A DNA stretch of 64,000 nt, taken from Microbacteriaceae bacterium MWH-Ta3. Lineage in GTDB: Bacteria; Actinomycetota; Actinomycetes; Actinomycetales; Microbacteriaceae. The DNA lies in the NCBI GenBank assembly GCA_003053925.1, contig QBKD01000001.1:806001-870000 (forward strand), given 5' to 3'. Below are positions 8,858-19,031 of the stretch, in pieces. The first letter of the stretch is position 1; each line of letters opens with the position of its first letter. Both the position numbers and the translations under genes were made by a program. A model generated the notes under the pieces. It did not search any database. It saw nothing but the letters and a program-made list of their open reading frames with translations, and was not told the DNA's origin.

Positions 8858-9622
8858 ATGACTGGAACATTAATCTCCAGATCCCCTTCGACGTCCATCC
8901 CGACCGCCGCAGTGAATCGCCGCAAGGTTGGCCGTCCGCGAAAGGACTCGAACACGCCCTCGGTGCGTGAGTCTCTGATTGCGCTCACCCGCCAAGAAGT
9001 CGCGGCGCACGGACCACTCGCCGTCAACGCGCGTACCGTGTGCATGCTGGCCGGTGTGACCTTTGCCAATGTGAACTACAACTTTGGTACCTGGAACGGG
9101 CTGTTGGCCGAGGCGGCCGCGGCAACCTATGTGGACTTTGTGGAATCGATCTGGGCGCAGGTCCAGGCAGCACCACACGACGCCGAGGCGCGTTTCCGCG
9201 CGTGGGTGTCGGCACAGGTTACGTGGCATCAGGCGAATCCCGGGTGGGGCGCATTCTTCGTCTTCCCCGTATCCGCCGAGGTTCCCGCTCAGCTAATGCG
9301 CGAAAAGGCCGGAAAGACTATTTCGGGCTACTTCACGCTTAACCTGGCCCGCCTGGGATCTTTGGTGCGCGATCTGCGCGATGGCACGGTGTCGGATTTT
9401 CCCTATGACACCAACAACTTCCCTCGTGCAGAAATGGCACAGGACACCGATCTCGTGTTGCGTGCGAATAGCATCGGCTGGTCCATTATGGGCTTGGCGG
9501 TCTGGAAGGCCGGCAGCCACGTCCAGCGCGATCAGGTCCCCGAAATTGATCGATTCGAGGCGCAGATCGAGGAATTCCACATTGCCGAACTCATCGCGAG
9601 TGCCCGCCGAGGAGCCCACTAA
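8858..9622 (+). CDS. TetR-like transcriptional regulator
   Basis: DNA-binding regulator of 254 residues, longer than most TetR proteins. An N-terminal basic segment RRKVGRPRKDS (about 21-31), similar to an AT-hook, precedes the helix-turn-helix (about residues 55-80, with ARTVCMLAGVTFANVNYNFG). The rest is an all-helical ligand or dimer domain. A TAGAAT hexamer ends exactly 6 nt before the ATG, indicating a leaderless transcript, with the 8-bp palindrome AACCGGTT at 8837-8844 just before it, a possible autoregulatory site. The methyltransferase gene starts on the base after its stop, so it is a likely target. The ligand is unknown. Confidence 0.75.
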   Translation: MTGTLISRSPSTSIPTAAVNRRKVGRPRKDSNTPSVRESLIALTRQEVAAHGPLAVNARTVCMLAGVTFANVNYNFGTWNGLLAEAAAATYVDFVESIWAQVQAAPHDAEARFRAWVSAQVTWHQANPGWGAFFVFPVSAEVPAQLMREKAGKTISGYFTLNLARLGSLVRDLRDGTVSDFPYDTNNFPRAEMAQDTDLVLRANSIGWSIMGLAVWKAGSHVQRDQVPEIDRFEAQIEEFHIAELIASARRGAH

Positions 9623-10108
9623 GTGGCCTCTGGATCGGAAACTCCGCGCGTCACTATCGTGACGGGGTGGGTGTTCGTCATTGCGCAGTTCACCCTGTTG
9701 GGTGCGTTGATGTTTTTGCCAGCGGCACCGGCGGAGGCAATGCCCGACGCCGGGCGCTGGTTGGCCGTTGCGTTGCAGGCGGCGGGCGGCATCCTCGTGG
9801 TGACGGCCCTGGTGCAGTTGGGGTCCAGCGCAACGGCGACTCCCGTGCCCACCGCGAAGTCAACATTGCGCACCTCGGGGCTCTATTCGCGGGTGCGTCA
9901 TCCGATTTACACCGGACTTTTTGCCATTGCGTTGGGCCTGGTTCTGTCGGGTGCGACAGGTGGCCACGCCATTATTGCGGTGGCCTTCGTGGTGCTTATG
10001 AATGTCAAGGCTCGATTTGAAGAGGCGCTGCTGCAGCACAAATACGAGTCCTATGCCGACTACATGGCGCGCACGGGACGTTTTTTTCCGCGAATCCACC
10101 GCGGCTAG
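9623..10108 (+). CDS. Isoprenylcysteine carboxyl methyltransferase-family membrane protein
   Basis: Integral membrane protein of 161 residues with about four hydrophobic segments. The C-terminal half carries the family signature: GLYSRVRHPIYTG (about 87-99), then KARFEEALL and YADYMARTGRFFP, which bind S-adenosylmethionine in ICMT/PEMT-like enzymes. Bacterial members mostly have unknown substrates (lipids or small molecules). GTG start follows the TetR stop codon with no gap, so the pair is one operon and the regulator probably controls it. No protein-prenylation role is implied. Confidence 0.75.
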   Translation: MASGSETPRVTIVTGWVFVIAQFTLLGALMFLPAAPAEAMPDAGRWLAVALQAAGGILVVTALVQLGSSATATPVPTAKSTLRTSGLYSRVRHPIYTGLFAIALGLVLSGATGGHAIIAVAFVVLMNVKARFEEALLQHKYESYADYMARTGRFFPRIHRG

Positions 10109-10126: not shown

Positions 10127-13100
10127 GTGAATGCTGACCAGTCGCCCGTCCTTGCCTCCGTTGCGACATCGGCATCGATTGATATGAGTGCCGCGGTCAT
10201 GCCGGCACGTTCGCAGGCGCTCCTGGACGCGATGGCGCAACGCGTGGTGATTTCCGATGGCGCCATGGGCACCATGCTGCAAGAGGCGAATCCCTCGCTG
10301 GATGACTACCGTCAACTGGAGGGCTGTAACGAGATCCTCAATGTCACGCGCCCCGACATTATCCGATCCATTCACGACGCCTATCTGGAAACCGGTGTGG
10401 ACTGCCTGGAATCCAACACCTTCGGTGCGAACTGGTCCAATCTGTCGGACTACGGCATCGAGGACCGTATCGAGGAACTCGCGCGCGAGGGCGCCGCGAT
10501 TGCCCGTGCCAGCGCCGATGCGTTCGAGGCGGCTGATGGCCGTGTGCGCTGGGTGCTGGGATCGATGGGCCCCGGAACAAAGCTGCCCAGCCTGGGCCAC
10601 ACCACCTACGCGCACCTGAAGGACACCTTTGCGGAACAGGCGCGCGGTCTCATCGCGGGTGGCACGGATGCCTTCATGATCGAGACCTCGCAGGATCTAC
10701 TGCAGACCAAGGCGGCGGTGAACGGCTGCAAGCAGGCGATTAACAAAACGGGCATTCGGTTGCCGATTTTTGTTGAGGTCACCGTCGAGACGACGGGCAC
10801 CATGCTGATGGGTTCCGAAATCGGTGCGGCGCTGACGGCACTTGAGCCCCTGGGAATCGACGCAATCGGCCTGAACTGCGCCACGGGTCCTGCCGAAATG
10901 TCCGAGCACCTGCGCCACCTGTCGAAGTATTCGACGGTGCCCGTCATGGTCATGCCGAACGCAGGTCTTCCCGTATTGGGGCCGAACGGCGCAACATATC
11001 CACTGACCCCCGATCAGCTTGCAACGGCACACGAACAGTTCGTAAAGGAATTCGGGCTTGCGCTGGTGGGTGGGTGCTGTGGCACCACGCCCGCGCACAT
11101 GAAGGCAGTCGTCGACCGCATTGGCGGTACGCGCGTTCTGACCCGCACGGTGGAATCCGACCCCGGTGTTGCCAGCCTGTACCAGCATGTGCCGTTTGAT
11201 CAGGATAACGCGTACCTTGCGATCGGCGAGCGCACGAACTCGAACGGATCCAAGGCTTTCCGCGAAGCGATGCTGGCCGAGAACTGGGATGACTGCGTGG
11301 ACATCGCTCGCAACCAGATTCGCGACGGCGCACACCTGTTGGATGTCTGCGTCGATTACGTGGGCCGTGATGGCGTTGCTGATATCCGTCAGGTCGTGTC
11401 GCGCTTTGCCAGCGCCTCGACCCTTCCCCTGGTGATCGATTCGACCGAGCCCGAGGTGATTCGCGCGGGCATGGAGCTGATTGGTGGCCGCCCGGTCGTG
11501 AACTCGGTGAACTTCGAGGACGGCGATGGCCCCGAATCACGGTTCGGCCGCATCATGCCGTTGGTCAAGGAGCACGGAGCCGCCGTCATTGCTCTGACGA
11601 TTGACGAAGAGGGCCAGGCCCGCACGGCCGAGGGCAAGGTGCGGATTGCGACTCGATTGATTGACACCCTCGTGAACGAGTGGGGAATGCGTGTCAGCGA
11701 CATCATTGTGGACTGTCTGACCTTCCCCATTGCCACCGGCCAAGAGGAAACACGCCGCGACGGCATCGAAACCATCGCCGCAATCCGGCAAATCACCGAT
11801 CGGTATCCCGGCATCCACACCACGCTGGGCGTGTCCAACGTGTCGTTCGGGTTGAACCCTGCGGCGCGCGTTGTGCTGAATTCCGTGTTTCTGCACGAGG
11901 CGGTCGAGGCGGGCCTCGATTCCGCCATTGTCGATGCCGCCAAGATTCGCCCGCTGGCGAGCCTCACCGAGGAACAGCGTGCGGTTGCACTGGACCTGGT
12001 CTGGGACCGGCGTGAGTGGGACGCCGAGGGCAACCTCACGTATGACCCGCTGGAAAAGATGCTCGACCTGTTCGCGGGTGTCGACACCGCCGCGATTCGC
12101 GACCAGCGCGCGGCGGAACTTGCCGCACTGCCCGTCACGGAACGTCTGGCCCGACGCATCATCGACGGCGAGCCGAAGGGACTCGAGGCGGATCTGGACC
12201 TTGCGCGCGCCGACGGCGTGACAGCCCTAGAAATCATTAACGACCACCTATTGGCCGGAATGCAGGTGGTGGGCGAACGCTTCGGTAAGGGTGAAATGCA
12301 GTTGCCCTTCGTGCTGCAATCCGCCGAGGTCATGAAGACGGCCGTGGCGTTGCTGGAGCCACACATGGAGAAATCCGAGGCCGCGGGCAAGGGCACCATT
12401 GTGCTGGCGACTGTGCGCGGCGATGTGCATGACATCGGCAAGAACCTCGTGGATATCATTCTGACCAACAACGGGTACGACGTGGTCAATATCGGCATCA
12501 AGCAATCGATCAACGACATCATTGCCGCGGCCGAGGAACACAACGCAGACGTCATCGGCATGAGCGGACTGTTGGTGAAGTCGACGGTCGTGATGAAGGA
12601 AAACCTGCAGGAACTGAACACCCGAGGCCTGGCGCAACGCTGGCCCGTGATTTTGGGCGGTGCCGCACTCACCCGTTCCTATGTCGAGGACGACCTGGCC
12701 GATATCTTCGAGGGCACCGTGCGGTACGCCCGCGACGCATTCGAGGGCCTGGCGCTGATGGAACCCCTGGTGGCAATCGCCCGAGGTGCGGCCCCCGATT
12801 CGGTGGGACTACCGGCGCTGAAGAAGCGCATTCACAAGCCCAGCACCTTGGTGATGACGGAACCGGACAATATGCCCGCTCGTTCCGACGTCGCGGCGGA
12901 CAACCCGGTCCCCGTGCCGCCGTTCTGGGGCACCCGCATTGTCAAGGGCGTGCAGTTGGGTGATTACGCCGCGTTCCTCGACGAGCGCGCCACGTTCATG
13001 GGTCAGTGGGGCTTGAAGCCAAGCCGGGCCGAGGACGGCGCCTCGTATGACGAACTGGTCGAGACCGAGGGTCGGCCGCGCCTGCGCTATTGGCTGGATC

Positions 13101-13768
13101 GCATTCTGGCCGAAGGCATGTTGGATGCCTCTGTGGTCTATGGCTACTTCCCCGCATATTCCGAGGGCGACGACATGGTGATTCTGCATCACGGCGACGA
13201 CCCCACCGGTGTGTTGGGCGCCCCGGGACTGCTGGCCCCCGATGGCGGATTGGGCGGCACTCTGGGAGCCGAGCGTGTGCGTTTCACCTTCCCGCGTCAG
13301 CGCCGCGACCGCCACCTGTGCTTGTCGGACTTCGTGCGCTCGCGCGAATCCGGGCAGATCGATGTTGTCGCGTTCCAGTTGGTGACCGTGGGTGCAACCG
13401 TGGACACCTTCACCGCACAGATGTTCGCGGCCAATCAGTACCGCGATTACATGGAATTGAACGGCCTGGCCATGCAGTTGACCGAGGCGCTCGCCGAATA
13501 CTGGCACTCGCGCGTTCGTGCCGAACTGGGGTTCGCCTCGGAAGAGCCGAACGATCTGGCGGGAATGTTCAAGTTGGATTATCGAGGCGCGCGCTTCAGT
13601 TTGGGATACCCTGCGTGCCCCGACATGGAGGACCGTCGCACAGTTGTCGACCTGCTGAAGCCCGAGCGCGTGGGGGTGGAATTGTCCGAGGAATTGCAGC
13701 TGCACCCCGAACAGTCCACCGACGCGATGGTGTTCCATCACCCCGAGGCGAAGTACTTCTCGGTCTAG
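10127..13768 (+). CDS. metH: Cobalamin-dependent methionine synthase
   Basis: Transfers the methyl group of methyltetrahydrofolate via cobalamin to homocysteine. All four MetH modules are present in 1213 residues: homocysteine domain with zinc cysteines GLNC (about 248) and GGCCGT (about 314), the pterin domain (about 350-620), the B12 cap and binding domain with DVHDIGKN (base-off histidine near 767), and the SAM reactivation domain (about 950-1213, with RPRLRYWLDRI). GTG start is supported by TAAACT exactly 6 nt upstream (leaderless). No cobalamin riboswitch fits in the 18-nt gap before it. The neighbouring ECF uptake cassette may supply its cofactor. Confidence 0.97.
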   Translation: MNADQSPVLASVATSASIDMSAAVMPARSQALLDAMAQRVVISDGAMGTMLQEANPSLDDYRQLEGCNEILNVTRPDIIRSIHDAYLETGVDCLESNTFGANWSNLSDYGIEDRIEELAREGAAIARASADAFEAADGRVRWVLGSMGPGTKLPSLGHTTYAHLKDTFAEQARGLIAGGTDAFMIETSQDLLQTKAAVNGCKQAINKTGIRLPIFVEVTVETTGTMLMGSEIGAALTALEPLGIDAIGLNCATGPAEMSEHLRHLSKYSTVPVMVMPNAGLPVLGPNGATYPLTPDQLATAHEQFVKEFGLALVGGCCGTTPAHMKAVVDRIGGTRVLTRTVESDPGVASLYQHVPFDQDNAYLAIGERTNSNGSKAFREAMLAENWDDCVDIARNQIRDGAHLLDVCVDYVGRDGVADIRQVVSRFASASTLPLVIDSTEPEVIRAGMELIGGRPVVNSVNFEDGDGPESRFGRIMPLVKEHGAAVIALTIDEEGQARTAEGKVRIATRLIDTLVNEWGMRVSDIIVDCLTFPIATGQEETRRDGIETIAAIRQITDRYPGIHTTLGVSNVSFGLNPAARVVLNSVFLHEAVEAGLDSAIVDAAKIRPLASLTEEQRAVALDLVWDRREWDAEGNLTYDPLEKMLDLFAGVDTAAIRDQRAAELAALPVTERLARRIIDGEPKGLEADLDLARADGVTALEIINDHLLAGMQVVGERFGKGEMQLPFVLQSAEVMKTAVALLEPHMEKSEAAGKGTIVLATVRGDVHDIGKNLVDIILTNNGYDVVNIGIKQSINDIIAAAEEHNADVIGMSGLLVKSTVVMKENLQELNTRGLAQRWPVILGGAALTRSYVEDDLADIFEGTVRYARDAFEGLALMEPLVAIARGAAPDSVGLPALKKRIHKPSTLVMTEPDNMPARSDVAADNPVPVPPFWGTRIVKGVQLGDYAAFLDERATFMGQWGLKPSRAEDGASYDELVETEGRPRLRYWLDRILAEGMLDASVVYGYFPAYSEGDDMVILHHGDDPTGVLGAPGLLAPDGGLGGTLGAERVRFTFPRQRRDRHLCLSDFVRSRESGQIDVVAFQLVTVGATVDTFTAQMFAANQYRDYMELNGLAMQLTEALAEYWHSRVRAELGFASEEPNDLAGMFKLDYRGARFSLGYPACPDMEDRRTVVDLLKPERVGVELSEELQLHPEQSTDAMVFHHPEAKYFSV

Positions 13769-13805: not shown

Positions 13806-14573
13806 TTAGATGCGGTCGAGCTTCGCACGGCGCAACGCCGACAGGGCGATCGGCCCCACCACAATCAGCCCGATGGTGGTGGTCACGGCACGAACGGTGT
13901 CCCAGGTGAGTGTTGATGTCAGCAGCGTGTAGGCGGCAAAGTGCTCGAGGTTTACCGCCAGCGGCGCACCCGGCACATACCCCAGCGTGGTGGTCGAGCC
14001 GACGGCAAAGGGCCAGAACCACAAATTCATGATGGCGCCAAACAGATACGACGCCACGATTCCATAGGCGACAAGCATCGCCGTGACTCGAATCGAGGTG
14101 CGGCTTTCCGTCACACGCGGCAGCAACCCGGCGCCCGCAGACACCCACCCCGCCGCAAACATTTGGAAGGCGGTCCAGGGACCGAAGCCGCCCATGAGGA
14201 CGGCCGATGTGGCGATCGTCAACATGCCGAGCAACAGGCCGAACCGAGGGCCGAAGGCATATCCCGCGAGTATCAACACGATGAACACGGCCTCCATGCC
14301 GCCGACTCCGGTGCTGGCGATGCGCACGGCCGAACCGACCGCCGCCAGCACACCCAACAGGGCTATGGCCTTGGCGCTGTCCACCGCCCGATCCAGCAGC
14401 AATGCCACGGCTACAACCAGGGCGGGGACGAGGGCCACAACGATGACCGGACTCGCAATGTCGCCATCATCGATGCGGGCGGGAAATACCAGCGGCCACG
14501 CGAATGCGGCCAGCGCACTTACCGAGGCGACGGCCAGGGGAGCGGTGGTGATCCACCCACGGGTTTCTGTCAT
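13806..14573 (-). CDS. ECF transporter S component, candidate cobalamin-type
   Basis: Substrate-binding membrane subunit of an energy-coupling factor importer: 255 residues with about six to seven hydrophobic segments. The central stretch GVGGMEAVFIVLILAGYAFG and LTIATSAVLMGGFGPWTAFQM is typical of ECF S components of the CbrT-like group found near B12 genes in actinobacteria. The ATG at 14573 overlaps the stop of the fused T-A-A gene (ATGA), so the two are translationally coupled; the frame continues 7 codons upstream. Proximity to metH makes cobalamin or a precursor the best guess, but queuosine and other vitamin S components look similar. Confidence 0.75.
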   Translation of the reverse strand: MTETRGWITTAPLAVASVSALAAFAWPLVFPARIDDGDIASPVIVVALVPALVVAVALLLDRAVDSAKAIALLGVLAAVGSAVRIASTGVGGMEAVFIVLILAGYAFGPRFGLLLGMLTIATSAVLMGGFGPWTAFQMFAAGWVSAGAGLLPRVTESRTSIRVTAMLVAYGIVASYLFGAIMNLWFWPFAVGSTTTLGYVPGAPLAVNLEHFAAYTLLTSTLTWDTVRAVTTTIGLIVVGPIALSALRRAKLDRI

Positions 14574-16381
14574 GTCGGCACCTCGGTGGACCACAGGTCA
14601 TCGACCGATACGGCGCCCGGCGCCTCGAGGGGCACGACTCGGGCATTCAGACGCGCACTGAATTCGAGGTCATGAGTCGCGATAATCACGTGGGTGGTTG
14701 TGGCGCACTGCTGGAGCACCGCCGCTATGCGCTGTCGAGAGGCGGGGTCGAGCCCGCGAGTGGGTTCGTCGACGAGCAGAATTGCGGGCGCGTGCGCCGT
14801 TTGGAGGGAAACGGCCAGCACCAGTTGTTCCCCCGCGGACAGATCGTGCGGATGCGCCGAGCTGGTGGCCACACCGGGTGCAATGTTCTGCAGGTGCGCG
14901 AGCGTCGTGCCCGTGGGAAGCCGCCGTGCGCGATCGTTTCGGCGGCAGTCGGCGGCAACGGAATCGGCGAACACAATATCGGCGGGGCGCTCGGGAACCA
15001 GTGCGCTGCCCGCCGACGCGGCCACCGCTCGCAACAAGGTGGACTTACCCGCACCGTTCGGGCCGCACACCGCGACGAGTCGGTCGTTGGGCTCGAGGTT
15101 AGAGATGGCGGCGTGCGGTGCGGCTGTGTCGTTCGAATCAGCGAAATTCGCCACGGCGGTTGGGGCACCCACCCGAGCCCACCCGCCCTCGAGGTGAACC
15201 ACGTGCGTGGCAACGTGCGCCAGCGAGGCAGTGCGGTGTTCGGCAATCACCAGGGCGATTTCGGTTGTGCGGGCAATGCGCGTGAGGACCGCCAGCACGC
15301 GGGCACGCGCCTCGAGGTCCAAATCGGCCAATGGTTCATCCAGTACCAACACCGTGGGCTGGGACACCAGGGCAACGGCGATGGCCACCAGCGTCGCTTC
15401 GCCGGCGGACAGGTGTTCAATCGGGCGCGCGGCAAGATGATCGAGGCCGAGTTCCCGCGTAATCGTGGCGGCCCGATATTCGGCGGCATCAAGGTCGCCC
15501 ACGCACAGATCGATGCCCGCCCGAAGTTCCTCGCGCACCGACGTCGCGATGAAGGCCGAGCGCGGATTCTGGGGGACATACGCCACAAAATGCGCGGTTT
15601 CCCGAGGTGCAACCGCACGTCGATCCACGCCCCCGACACGCAGCATCCCCGACTGTTCGCCGCCATCCAGATGCTGAAAAAGTCCGACAATCGCGCGTAG
15701 TAGCGTGGTTTTGCCCGACCCGGTATCGCCGGCGACCAGCGTGACCGAACCCGGTGGGCACGACCATGCGTCGATCTGAACGATCGCCCGATCGCCGATG
15801 CTCAAGCGCAGGTTTCGCGCCTCGATGGGGAATTCGCACACCCCGGTGGGCGGCGACGCAGTCCGGCCGAATCCGCGCGATTCGAGCGCTCCGGCAACGG
15901 TGACCGCGTGCTCGACGGTCCATGACAAAACGGGAGACAGAATCCAGATTCCAGGCCGCAGACCGCGCCACCGTCCGGCCTGACGTACACGGGTGACCGC
16001 CGCGACCAGCACGGGAAATGTGGCCAAGGCTATGCCGGCTGCGGTCAGAATTGCGCGGCCGGGGCCTGCCGGGCGAACGCGCAGCAGCAGGGTGCGTACG
16101 TCGAGGATGGTGCCGATCACGCCGAACAGCAGAATGATCGCCGCGAAGGGCAGTGCGCTGATTGCCGCATCGCCGATTCCATCCGTCGTGATTGTTCCAC
16201 CGACGGACACGGTGGTGAAGGGTGCGGGCAAGCGCAGGTGCGGTAGCTCGGCCAGCACACTGCCGTCACCGTTCGCGCCACCAAATGCCACGCGATACAG
16301 CACGCGAATACCCACGAAGCCCAGGGCGAACCACGCCGAAAGCCACAGGGGCTTCAGTCCGTGCGGCGCCAGGCGGGACAT
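14570..16381 (-). CDS. ECF transporter T component fused to two ATPase domains
   Basis: One 603-residue protein appears to combine three ECF subunits. Residues 1-180 are membrane helices with the EcfT-type coupling motif ALESRGFG near 165-172. The first ATPase has Walker A GDTGSGKTT (about 216), signature LSAGEATLVA (about 322) and Walker B VLVLDEPLADLD (about 344). The second has GPNGAGKST (about 439), LSAGEQLVLA (about 512) and ILLVDEPTRGLD (about 534). Only three clear helices are visible in the T part, against the usual five or so, but LSWTVEHAV may add a coupling helix. With the downstream S component this makes a complete importer. Encoded between the lipoprotein and S-component genes. 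Confidence 0.85.
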   Translation of the reverse strand: MSRLAPHGLKPLWLSAWFALGFVGIRVLYRVAFGGANGDGSVLAELPHLRLPAPFTTVSVGGTITTDGIGDAAISALPFAAIILLFGVIGTILDVRTLLLRVRPAGPGRAILTAAGIALATFPVLVAAVTRVRQAGRWRGLRPGIWILSPVLSWTVEHAVTVAGALESRGFGRTASPPTGVCEFPIEARNLRLSIGDRAIVQIDAWSCPPGSVTLVAGDTGSGKTTLLRAIVGLFQHLDGGEQSGMLRVGGVDRRAVAPRETAHFVAYVPQNPRSAFIATSVREELRAGIDLCVGDLDAAEYRAATITRELGLDHLAARPIEHLSAGEATLVAIAVALVSQPTVLVLDEPLADLDLEARARVLAVLTRIARTTEIALVIAEHRTASLAHVATHVVHLEGGWARVGAPTAVANFADSNDTAAPHAAISNLEPNDRLVAVCGPNGAGKSTLLRAVAASAGSALVPERPADIVFADSVAADCRRNDRARRLPTGTTLAHLQNIAPGVATSSAHPHDLSAGEQLVLAVSLQTAHAPAILLVDEPTRGLDPASRQRIAAVLQQCATTTHVIIATHDLEFSARLNARVVPLEAPGAVSVDDLWSTEVPT

Positions 16382-16390
16382 GATCCGGTG

Positions 16391-16912
16391 TTATCCCTCG
16401 GGCGTCGGTGTTGCGCCGCCCGTGCTGAACACCAAGCCCAGGGCGTCACCCGACTTCACAATCTGGGTGTCGATGCCTTCCATGGCATATCCCCATTCGT
16501 CAACACCCGCCTGTTTGATCCACAGCGCCCAGTATGCGAAAGCCGGAGGCATCGTGTCGCAGGTTTCGGTGTACGGTTCTTCGCCCTCAACGGTGAACGG
16601 TGTGTCGCTGGCGGGCAGGCCATTGACGCGGCAAATGACGGCGGTGCCGTACTCCACGGTGCCCTCGGTGGTGATACCCACCAATTCGAGGGCCTCGGCC
16701 GCGGTCACGGGTTCGTCGTTCGAGAACGACGCGCAGGTGTTAATCGGGTCGGCGCCCAGGATGTCGAACGAGACGGAAATTGCCACGCCCGCACAATCCG
16801 GGACTGCCGTGGGTGCGGTGACGGCGGGCTCTGGCGCGGTGGTGCACCCGCCGAGGGCAATCAGGGCCGCGACGGCGACGACAATCGAGGCGCGAACGCG
16901 GGTTCCAGACAT
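16391..16912 (-). CDS. Secreted lipoprotein with DUF4430/transcobalamin-like character
   Basis: 173-residue predicted lipoprotein: a hydrophobic signal segment ends in the lipobox ALGGC (C23), then a Pro/Thr/Ala linker. The mature part has VSFDILG, TCASF, CRVNGLPA and a C-terminal stretch AYWALWIKQAG...WGYAMEGI...VKSGDALGLVF. This layout resembles the small beta domain (DUF4430, transcobalamin C-terminal-like, or the SCO2322-type proteins) found beside ECF importers in actinobacteria; this match is from memory, not a search. Four mature cysteines besides C23 could pair. The start at 16912 has an AAGGAG site. It heads the ECF operon and may capture the substrate at the cell surface. Confidence 0.55.
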   Translation of the reverse strand: MSGTRVRASIVVAVAALIALGGCTTAPEPAVTAPTAVPDCAGVAISVSFDILGADPINTCASFSNDEPVTAAEALELVGITTEGTVEYGTAVICRVNGLPASDTPFTVEGEEPYTETCDTMPPAFAYWALWIKQAGVDEWGYAMEGIDTQIVKSGDALGLVFSTGGATPTPEG

Positions 16913-17009: not shown

Positions 17010-19031
17010 CTAGTGCACCCCGCCGCACACGGCAATCGCACCCACCGGCGACGTTGCCGTGCGCGCCAGTGCGACAACCACGTGTCCGTACGGTTCACGC
17101 CATTCGCTGTGGATGCGGTGCGATTCGTGTGCAGGTACATCGGCCCAGGCCTCGAATCCGCCGCCGTCCCGCGGTGTCACCGTGGCCGCAACTCCATTGA
17201 CATATACCTGTGCCTCGGTGACGTCCGATTCGGTTTCCACCGTCACGCGCTGGTTGCCTCCTTCGAGTTCGGTCAGGCTGGTGGTGATAATCAGATCGTG
17301 TGCGGCATCGGAAGAGTCGGTAGCCAGCGGCGACCACTCCGCACCCGACAATTCCGGTGTGCGCGGCGGCGCCGTACGACGCTGGCGAAGGTGATCGAAT
17401 GCCCAGCCATATGACAGCAGGGCGCTGTCGTCATAGGCGCGGCCCGCGAAAGTCAAGCCAACGGGCATCCCAATATCCGCCATGATGCCCATCGGAACCG
17501 TCACGGTGGGAATACCCAGGTGACGGGGAACGAGGTTTCCGTTCGATACCCACACGCCGTTGCGCCAAGCGAGGTCGGCGGATTCGGGGTTCACATCGGC
17601 ATCGGCCGGTCCCACGTCGGCGGCGGCGGGGAACACAACGGCATCGAGCCCCAGATCGCTCATCCACTGTTCCAGATCCACCTGGCGTGCGCGTTCCAGC
17701 CCGCGGACACCGTCGGCGAGGGTCGGGATTTCAGTCAACCCGGGAACACCATCCGTGCGTGCGCGCCAGACGTACTCGCGCAGGTCCACGTCTTCGGGGG
17801 CGAACCGGTGCAGGTGCGCCTCGTATCGACCCGGCAAGGCGCCCGTGGGTTTGGGGAAAATCTTCTCGGGGTCCACATCGGCCAAGGAGTGCAGGCCCGG
17901 GTCGTTGTTCGCCTCGAGGAAATCGTTCCATCCGAACATCGACAGATCGAACAATTCACGCTCGGCAAAGTAAGCGGGTACGAATCCGCGCGCCACAAGG
18001 TTTCGGGCGTTCGCCCCGTGGCTCTCGTAGTTTGCAACGACGGGAAAGTCCACCTCGACCACCGATGCACCGGCGGCCTCGAGGTCGGCACGCGCCGCCT
18101 CCCAGAGCGCAATCACCGATTCGCGCGTCTCGATGCGGTCGGTGCTGGACACGTCTTTATTGATGTACATCCGAGGCACACCGAAACGTTTTCCGGCCAG
18201 CACTCGGCTCTTGCGCAAATACCCATATGATCCGGGCCGAACGGTGCTGCTGGCAGGAATCATGACCCAGGGCTGTGTGCGCCAAAAGTCACCGCGGGTG
18301 TTTGCATCATCCGCCACGACAACTTCGAGAACGGCCAGCATGTCGTCCATGGTGCGCGTGTGGGGAACGACAACATCCATGGTGGGAACCAGCGGCCAGT
18401 TGCCGCGCACCGAAATCAAGCCGCGCGAGGGCGTGTACGCGCACAAGCCATTATTTGATGCGGGGGCACGCCCCGACGACCAAGTCTCTTCACCTAAACC
18501 GAACGCGGCAAAACTTGCCGCCGTCGCGGTTCCCGAACCGTTGGATGATCCCGAGCCAAACGCCGCAGTCAGATACTCGGCGTTGTAGGGGCTTTCGGCA
18601 CGACCATACAGGCCTCGCTGCATTCCGCCATTCGCCATGGGTGGCATGTTCGTGAGTCCCACGAGCACGGCACCGGCAGCGCGTAATTGGGCAATGGTGA
18701 ACGCGTCGTCGGTAGCCACGAGGTCGGCAAAGGCGGGGGACCCCGATGCGACGGTCAACCCGCGAGCCTTGTAGCTGTTTTTCGCGGTGTACGGAATTCC
18801 GTCCAGTTCGGACAGCACCTCGCCACGGGCGCGTCGTTCATCGGATGCGCGGGCATCGGCGAAGGCCTCGGGATTCATGACAGGGACGGCGTTCAGTGTG
18901 ATGCCGTGCCGGTCGAAATGCGCGATCCGATTCAGGTACGCGGCCAGCAATTCCACACTCGAAATCTGACCGCTGTCTAGGTCTGTGCGCAGCTCGGCAA
19001 TGCTTTTCTCAACAACGTCGTAGTGATGCAT
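17010..19031 (-). CDS. Amidase-signature family hydrolase with extra C-terminal domain
   Basis: Cytosolic-looking 673-residue hydrolase of amides (exact substrate unknown). The Ser-cisSer-Lys triad can be placed at K84 (YTAKNSYK), a serine in GSGSSNGSG (about 160-166) and nucleophile S186 in WSSGRAPAS. The signature is slightly divergent, with EETWSS in place of the usual TGGS. After the amidase core (about residue 560) a beta-rich domain of about 100 residues follows, with VTVETESDVTEAQVYVNGVAATV, unusual for the family. TATTCT lies exactly 6 nt before the ATG, so the transcript is probably leaderless. Transcribed alone. Confidence 0.85.
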   Translation of the reverse strand: MHHYDVVEKSIAELRTDLDSGQISSVELLAAYLNRIAHFDRHGITLNAVPVMNPEAFADARASDERRARGEVLSELDGIPYTAKNSYKARGLTVASGSPAFADLVATDDAFTIAQLRAAGAVLVGLTNMPPMANGGMQRGLYGRAESPYNAEYLTAAFGSGSSNGSGTATAASFAAFGLGEETWSSGRAPASNNGLCAYTPSRGLISVRGNWPLVPTMDVVVPHTRTMDDMLAVLEVVVADDANTRGDFWRTQPWVMIPASSTVRPGSYGYLRKSRVLAGKRFGVPRMYINKDVSSTDRIETRESVIALWEAARADLEAAGASVVEVDFPVVANYESHGANARNLVARGFVPAYFAERELFDLSMFGWNDFLEANNDPGLHSLADVDPEKIFPKPTGALPGRYEAHLHRFAPEDVDLREYVWRARTDGVPGLTEIPTLADGVRGLERARQVDLEQWMSDLGLDAVVFPAAADVGPADADVNPESADLAWRNGVWVSNGNLVPRHLGIPTVTVPMGIMADIGMPVGLTFAGRAYDDSALLSYGWAFDHLRQRRTAPPRTPELSGAEWSPLATDSSDAAHDLIITTSLTELEGGNQRVTVETESDVTEAQVYVNGVAATVTPRDGGGFEAWADVPAHESHRIHSEWREPYGHVVVALARTATSPVGAIAVCGGVH

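Follow-up and report, generated by a model that had tools for sequence, protein, structure and literature searches.

A compact ECF transporter convergent with metH, carrying a DUF4430-like lipoprotein, is the probable vitamin B12 importer of a small-genome actinobacterium

By current descriptions, ECF importers need no extracellular binding protein, and no ECF transporter is known to us that uses an extracellular capturing subunit. In acI Actinobacteria, riboswitch-preceded ECF modules have already been predicted to be B12 importers (PMC5301498), and B12 and cobinamide have been shown experimentally to be substrates of ECF-CbrT (PMC5997447). A Streptomyces-type operon has the order SCO2321, SCO2322, T, AA, and S (NCBIfam NF053823, NF040672). 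Vertebrate transcobalamins carry DUF4430 as their C-terminal domain (PMC4350170). When produced separately, the beta domain of human transcobalamin binds both cobalamin and cobinamide, and it associates with its alpha partner only in the presence of cobalamin (PMC5599065). The transporter described here is thus of a known kind, with a previously predicted role in B12 uptake; its new details are a compacted and fused form, a link to metH, a change in the second ATPase domain, an unpermuted lipoprotein, and a permuted relative of that lipoprotein.

The window is the whole stretch of DNA that was analysed, 64,000 nucleotides from Microbacteriaceae bacterium MWH-Ta3. On its minus strand, three contiguous and conserved genes (16912-13806) encode a lipoprotein, a fusion of the T component with two ATPase domains (T-A-A), and an S component. 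The host, an actinobacterium with a small genome, very probably relies on this cluster alone for vitamin B12 import. The exported lipoprotein (16391..16912, minus strand, 173 aa) begins at an ATG preceded by an AAGGAG ribosome-binding site and carries a signal peptide with an L-G-G-C lipobox at Cys23; its mature, DUF4430-like domain contains four conserved cysteines. Its stop codon lies 9 bp from the start of the T-A-A fusion (16381..14570, minus strand, 603 aa). The S component, the substrate-binding membrane subunit (13806..14573, minus strand), is most likely 255 aa long, because its ATG at 14573 overlaps the fusion's TGA stop codon; a start at GTG 14594, giving 262 aa, is less likely. Between the S stop and the end of metH (10127..13768, plus strand), which is read convergently, lie 37 bp; metH is a cobalamin-dependent methionine synthase gene with a full-length TIGR02082 match of 1357.7 bits. 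No sigma-70-like promoter stood out at the locus, and terminator-like sites occurred at chance level.

Several neighbouring genes were also noted. An amidase gene (17010-19031; NF005127, 932 bits) lies just upstream of the lipoprotein, and the C-terminal extension of its product, ~100 aa, weakly resembles a TcaA domain. Upstream of metH and on its strand are a TetR-like regulator (8858-9622) and a small gene resembling phospholipid/isoprenylcysteine methyltransferases (9623-10108), both possibly co-transcribed with metH.

Among 60 genomes searched, the T-A-A fusion occurs in the source genome (G000) and in G026, G041, G059, and G027, and an S-alignment search added six more T-A-A loci, all in the window's family. 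Used as a query for related loci, the fusion itself returned generic ATPases only. The order of lipoprotein, T-A-A, and S with a convergent metH is kept in all 11 T-A-A loci, with a spacing between cluster and metH of ~2.0-2.6 kb in G059, G157, and G137. A chance arrangement is excluded because the same lipoprotein and T-A-A(-S) cluster, convergent with metH, recurs in another 10 genomes, which belong to two families. The initial annotation, which had described a three-gene ECF importer beside metH, is borne out in both respects: the genes are real, contiguous, and conserved, and metH is a convergent neighbour whose linkage persists throughout the lineage.

The T part of the fusion (15842..16381, minus strand, ~residues 1-180) is CbiQ-like and still has the two Arg-Gly coupling motifs, RWRG and ESRG. 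It matches CbiQ (PF02361) below the cut-off (E 0.038), whereas a full-length aligned relative reaches 2.7e-9. Compared with 12 outgroup T proteins, it is shortened at both ends, lacking a C-terminal part and ~45 N-terminal residues that in relatives have the sequence of a hydrophobic helix. The first ATPase domain, NBD1 (15152..15826, minus strand, ~residues 186-410), contains Walker A GDTGSGKT, Q-loop YVPQ, signature LSAGE, and Walker B VLVLDEP. The second and shortened domain, NBD2 (14612..15109, minus strand, ~residues 425-590), contains Walker A GPNGAGKS, signature LSAGE, and Walker B ILLVDEP, with LVPE at its Q-loop. Both domains carry the Walker A, signature, and Walker B motifs of ABC ATPases, and the NBD2 Q-loop is non-canonical. 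At this position (window ~14970-15000), all 11 lineage members have Glu or Asp, in contrast to Gln in all 17 outgroup operons. Because the Gln of NBD2 is replaced while NBD1 keeps its own throughout the lineage, the motor may be asymmetric.

Fusion extends to the S component in 6 of the 11 loci (G041, G059, G157, G186, G294, G137), where a single T-A-A-S frame of 964-1196 codons is found. The S part of such single-chain transporters (L015, L016, L050, L051, L052, L055) cannot dissociate freely, and these chains bear on whether ECF transport needs S-component release. The system of this lineage is thus a compacted one, with no riboswitch, no adjacent toroid, a shortened T part, and T-A-A, sometimes T-A-A-S, fused into one chain.

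The S component of the window is homologous to the A2 family, whose members pass PF12822/PF07155, while the window's S itself has no Pfam ECF match. A search of solved structures with it gave no match in the PDB at E values up to 10, CbrT included. Members of the S family occur in 156 of 297 genomes of the class. In G027, the S match (G027:C1:1062471-1063205; L017 near 8502) reads through an in-frame TAG close to its 3′ end, and the protein therefore probably ends early.

Evidence for the substrate comes from relatives of this S component. Cobalamin riboswitches were listed in 35 genomes outside the T-A-A lineage, and their positions were compared for the 34 S genes with available coordinates. 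In 31 of these 34 genes, an RF00174 match is found upstream in the same orientation, at a distance of 2828-5976 bp, against ~1% expected by chance per gene at that position; some of these matches fall below the Rfam gathering score, so that each is weak taken singly, but their placement departs widely from chance. The S component thus groups with a B12-riboswitch-controlled family, not with a non-B12 family, the grouping that the initial annotation had named as refuting its reading. Co-inheritance with metH points to the same substrate. In the window's family, f1, S is found in 10/10 genomes with metH and in 0/31 without it (Fisher 9e-10); these counts lack phylogenetic independence, and S and metH are linked in most cases. 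G024 nevertheless has the S operon at a distance of ~115 kb from metH.

No cobalamin riboswitch was found in the window or in G000, including in a search for a degenerate form. The absence of a riboswitch from the T-A-A lineage would fit a transporter for a substrate unrelated to B12, such as a metal or another vitamin, with the adjacency to metH being accidental, and homologous S components do match PF07155, which is named for riboflavin. This is nevertheless highly improbable in view of the B12 riboswitches upstream of the relatives of a co-inheritance with metH that includes the unlinked case, and of a linkage kept in two families. The cobalamin reading, proposed at the outset from the location beside metH, is well supported, and we infer with some force from the sequence comparisons that import proceeds via this cluster. 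In its fuller form, the preferred reading is highly likely: the cluster would be a dedicated importer of cobalamin, or of another complete corrinoid, that supplies MetH.

G000 was examined by family searches only, and these returned no FecCD (BtuC-type) permease, no MetE domain (PF01717), and no match to CbiC, a corrin-ring marker. The first and last results agree with the initial annotation, which had seen no other B12 gene in view and had named a separate BtuFCD system and de novo B12 genes as features to look for in the genome. The CbiC result also bears on import of an incomplete corrinoid, cobinamide or cobyrinate, in place of a complete cobamide. Such a substrate is suggested by the binding of cobinamide to transcobalamin-beta (PMC5599065) and its transport by ECF-CbrT (PMC5997447), and by the annotation of CbrUVT as a cobyrinate diamide uptake system (PMC8123684); a precursor of this kind would call for nucleotide-loop genes to finish it. 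CbiC was not found in the genome; an incomplete corrinoid may be imported but is the unlikely alternative, and a complete one remains the preferred substrate.

The methionine genes set G000 apart from its relatives. Both metH and S are absent from 5/5 same-genus genomes tested, and MetE is absent from 4/4. Because tested congeners lack metH, S, and MetE, G000 is unusual in its genus in that it can complete methionine, provided that B12 is imported; relative to that genus, the cluster has been gained or kept. G001, G008, G010, and G014, of the window's genus, have neither metH, MetE, nor S, and may need external methionine.

The lipoprotein is distantly related to DUF4430. In individual searches, Pfam returned no match to the lipoprotein, DUF4430 (PF14478) remaining below its gathering threshold, and NF040672 (SCO2322 family) scored 18.2 bits against the 85 required; the HMM comparison with these two families, put forward in the initial annotation, thus fell below the cut-off in both cases. 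Profiles were then compared, one from 17 exported operon proteins (the window's included) and one from 23 genuine DUF4430 domains from the phylum. They match collinearly over 90 columns in hhalign (Prob 93.5, E 2.4e-7) with a score of 46.9, whereas 100 column shuffles reached no more than 18.8. A repeat with a second pair of alignments gave a concordant result, the collinear match covering 90-98 columns overall. This comparison of sequence profiles argues for remote, collinear homology. The DUF4430 resemblance first claimed for the C-terminal half of the lipoprotein therefore holds, but it spans ~residues 43-165, nearly the whole mature protein. In other classes, several of the Pfam-positive DUF4430 genes adjoin T/A-A and S homologues (L098, L099, L100, L101), and both types of exported protein are present at L093 and L094. 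Structure prediction of the lipoprotein from its single sequence was uninformative (pLDDT 34).

The lipoprotein family was also compared with SCO2322-type proteins of eight operons (L058-L062, L064, L065, L067). The alignment falls into two segments whose order is exchanged between the two families (Prob 96 and 93); with a doubled SCO2322 profile, the segments merge into a single collinear alignment of 128 columns (Prob 98.4, E 4.7e-15; score 101, shuffles at most 22). Because of this collinear joining, SCO2322-type domains are circular permutants of the window's lipoprotein domain. DUF4430 has the unpermuted order, as in the lipoprotein. The literature searched contained no publication on SCO2322 and no report of its permutation.

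Outside the T-A-A lineage, the 18 loci read share an operon core of T, A-A, and S. An exported DUF4430-like or SCO2322-type protein accompanies 16 of these 18 and all 11 lineage loci, 27/29 together, most of the proteins counted having also built the profiles and those of G132, G267, G191, and G024 having been found afterwards; the exceptions are G292 and G337. Among ECF transporters in the literature read, such an extracellular subunit is unusual, though it is common in the window's ECF family, where the uncommon arrangement initially proposed is the rule. A SCO2321-like toroid of the squalene-cyclase superfamily adjoins 10/18 outgroup loci and 0/11 lineage loci. This toroid was considered as a transcobalamin alpha domain and rejected, as it matches squalene-hopene cyclases and not transcobalamin. 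Where both are present, the toroid and the beta-type protein resemble a split transcobalamin in layout only.

The likeliest role of the lipoprotein would be corrinoid capture. RtpR requires B12. In Lacticaseibacillus rhamnosus, a DUF4430 gene adjoins rtpR (PMC9963975), in line with the B12 connection of the domain in the vertebrate proteins. The DUF4430 profile reaches the solved transcobalamin-2 domain at E 0.089, and because this HMM link is weak, the vertebrate analogy is a lead and not a proof; the lipoprotein profile itself found nothing meaningful among PDB sequences and no relative there. Among the matches examined in the literature searched, no ECF transporter with a DUF4430 or transcobalamin-like partner is described, and none of the literature naming both DUF4430 and cobalamin concerns ECF. 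It is conceivable, at somewhat under an even chance, that the lipoprotein represents, as a separate bacterial protein, the counterpart of the beta domain of transcobalamin and intrinsic factor, capturing extracellular B12 for the S component, and that some outgroup operons encode a split version comprising a toroid and a beta-type protein, with SCO2322 permuted.

The same importer and substrate class could also operate with a lipoprotein that does not bind B12 and acts instead as a structural or gating partner of S. The weak link to transcobalamin-2 leaves room for such a role, as does the Lactobacillus ECF-CbrT, which transports B12 as T, two ATPases, and S (PMC5997447). Against it stand the exported protein of the same domain type that is retained in nearly every locus, even without a toroid, and the vertebrate domain that binds B12 alone (PMC5599065). 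A non-binding partner is accordingly plausible without being probable; it concerns the role of the lipoprotein only, and the confidences given to this and the other alternatives are not mutually exclusive.

With corrinoid capture as the preferred role, uptake would proceed in four steps. The surface-anchored lipoprotein would bind scarce corrinoid through its DUF4430-like domain and concentrate it at the membrane. From there, by what is known of ECF biology, the S component would take the corrinoid into its membrane cavity. Docking of S and ATP-driven release are established for ECF transporters; in the window's system, S would likewise dock on the T-A-A fusion as its motor, with release into the cell driven by ATP hydrolysis. 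MetH would then use the imported corrinoid to make methionine.

Receptor-assisted ECF uptake can be tested directly in this large actinobacterial family, which pairs ECF transporters with exported DUF4430-type proteins; so can the idea that vertebrate B12 carriers rely on a domain already serving B12 in bacteria. The family also bears on reduced-genome Actinobacteria, in which methionine synthesis would depend on B12 made by neighbours.

Known systems share parts of this arrangement to different degrees. BtuFCD is set apart by its FecCD permease, for which G000 has 0 matches. The B12-capturing surface lipoproteins of Bacteroides are similar by proposed function only, with no homology claimed, and they belong to a Gram-negative outer-membrane system, unlike the window's lipoprotein (PMC6143338). 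Compared with DUF4430 and the beta domain of transcobalamin and intrinsic factor, the window's lipoprotein is collinear with DUF4430 below the Pfam threshold, has four conserved cysteines, and lacks an alpha domain. ECF-CbrT of Lactobacillus delbrueckii has the ECF architecture in common with the window's system (PMC5997447), but it is a Group II transporter with a shared module and no described extracellular subunit, and its S component has no detectable similarity to that of the window. The acI modules and the Streptomyces-type operon are closer, with homologous S components and ATPases, an alignable T, and, encoded immediately before T, an exported domain of the same type, although the genomes compared here may differ from the acI strains of PMC5301498. 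The acI modules are preceded by cobalamin/AdoCbl riboswitches (PMC5301498), and relative to both systems the window's cluster has a fused T-A-A with a short T, neither toroid nor riboswitch, an unpermuted lipoprotein in place of SCO2322, Glu in place of Gln in the NBD2 Q-loop, and a link to metH.
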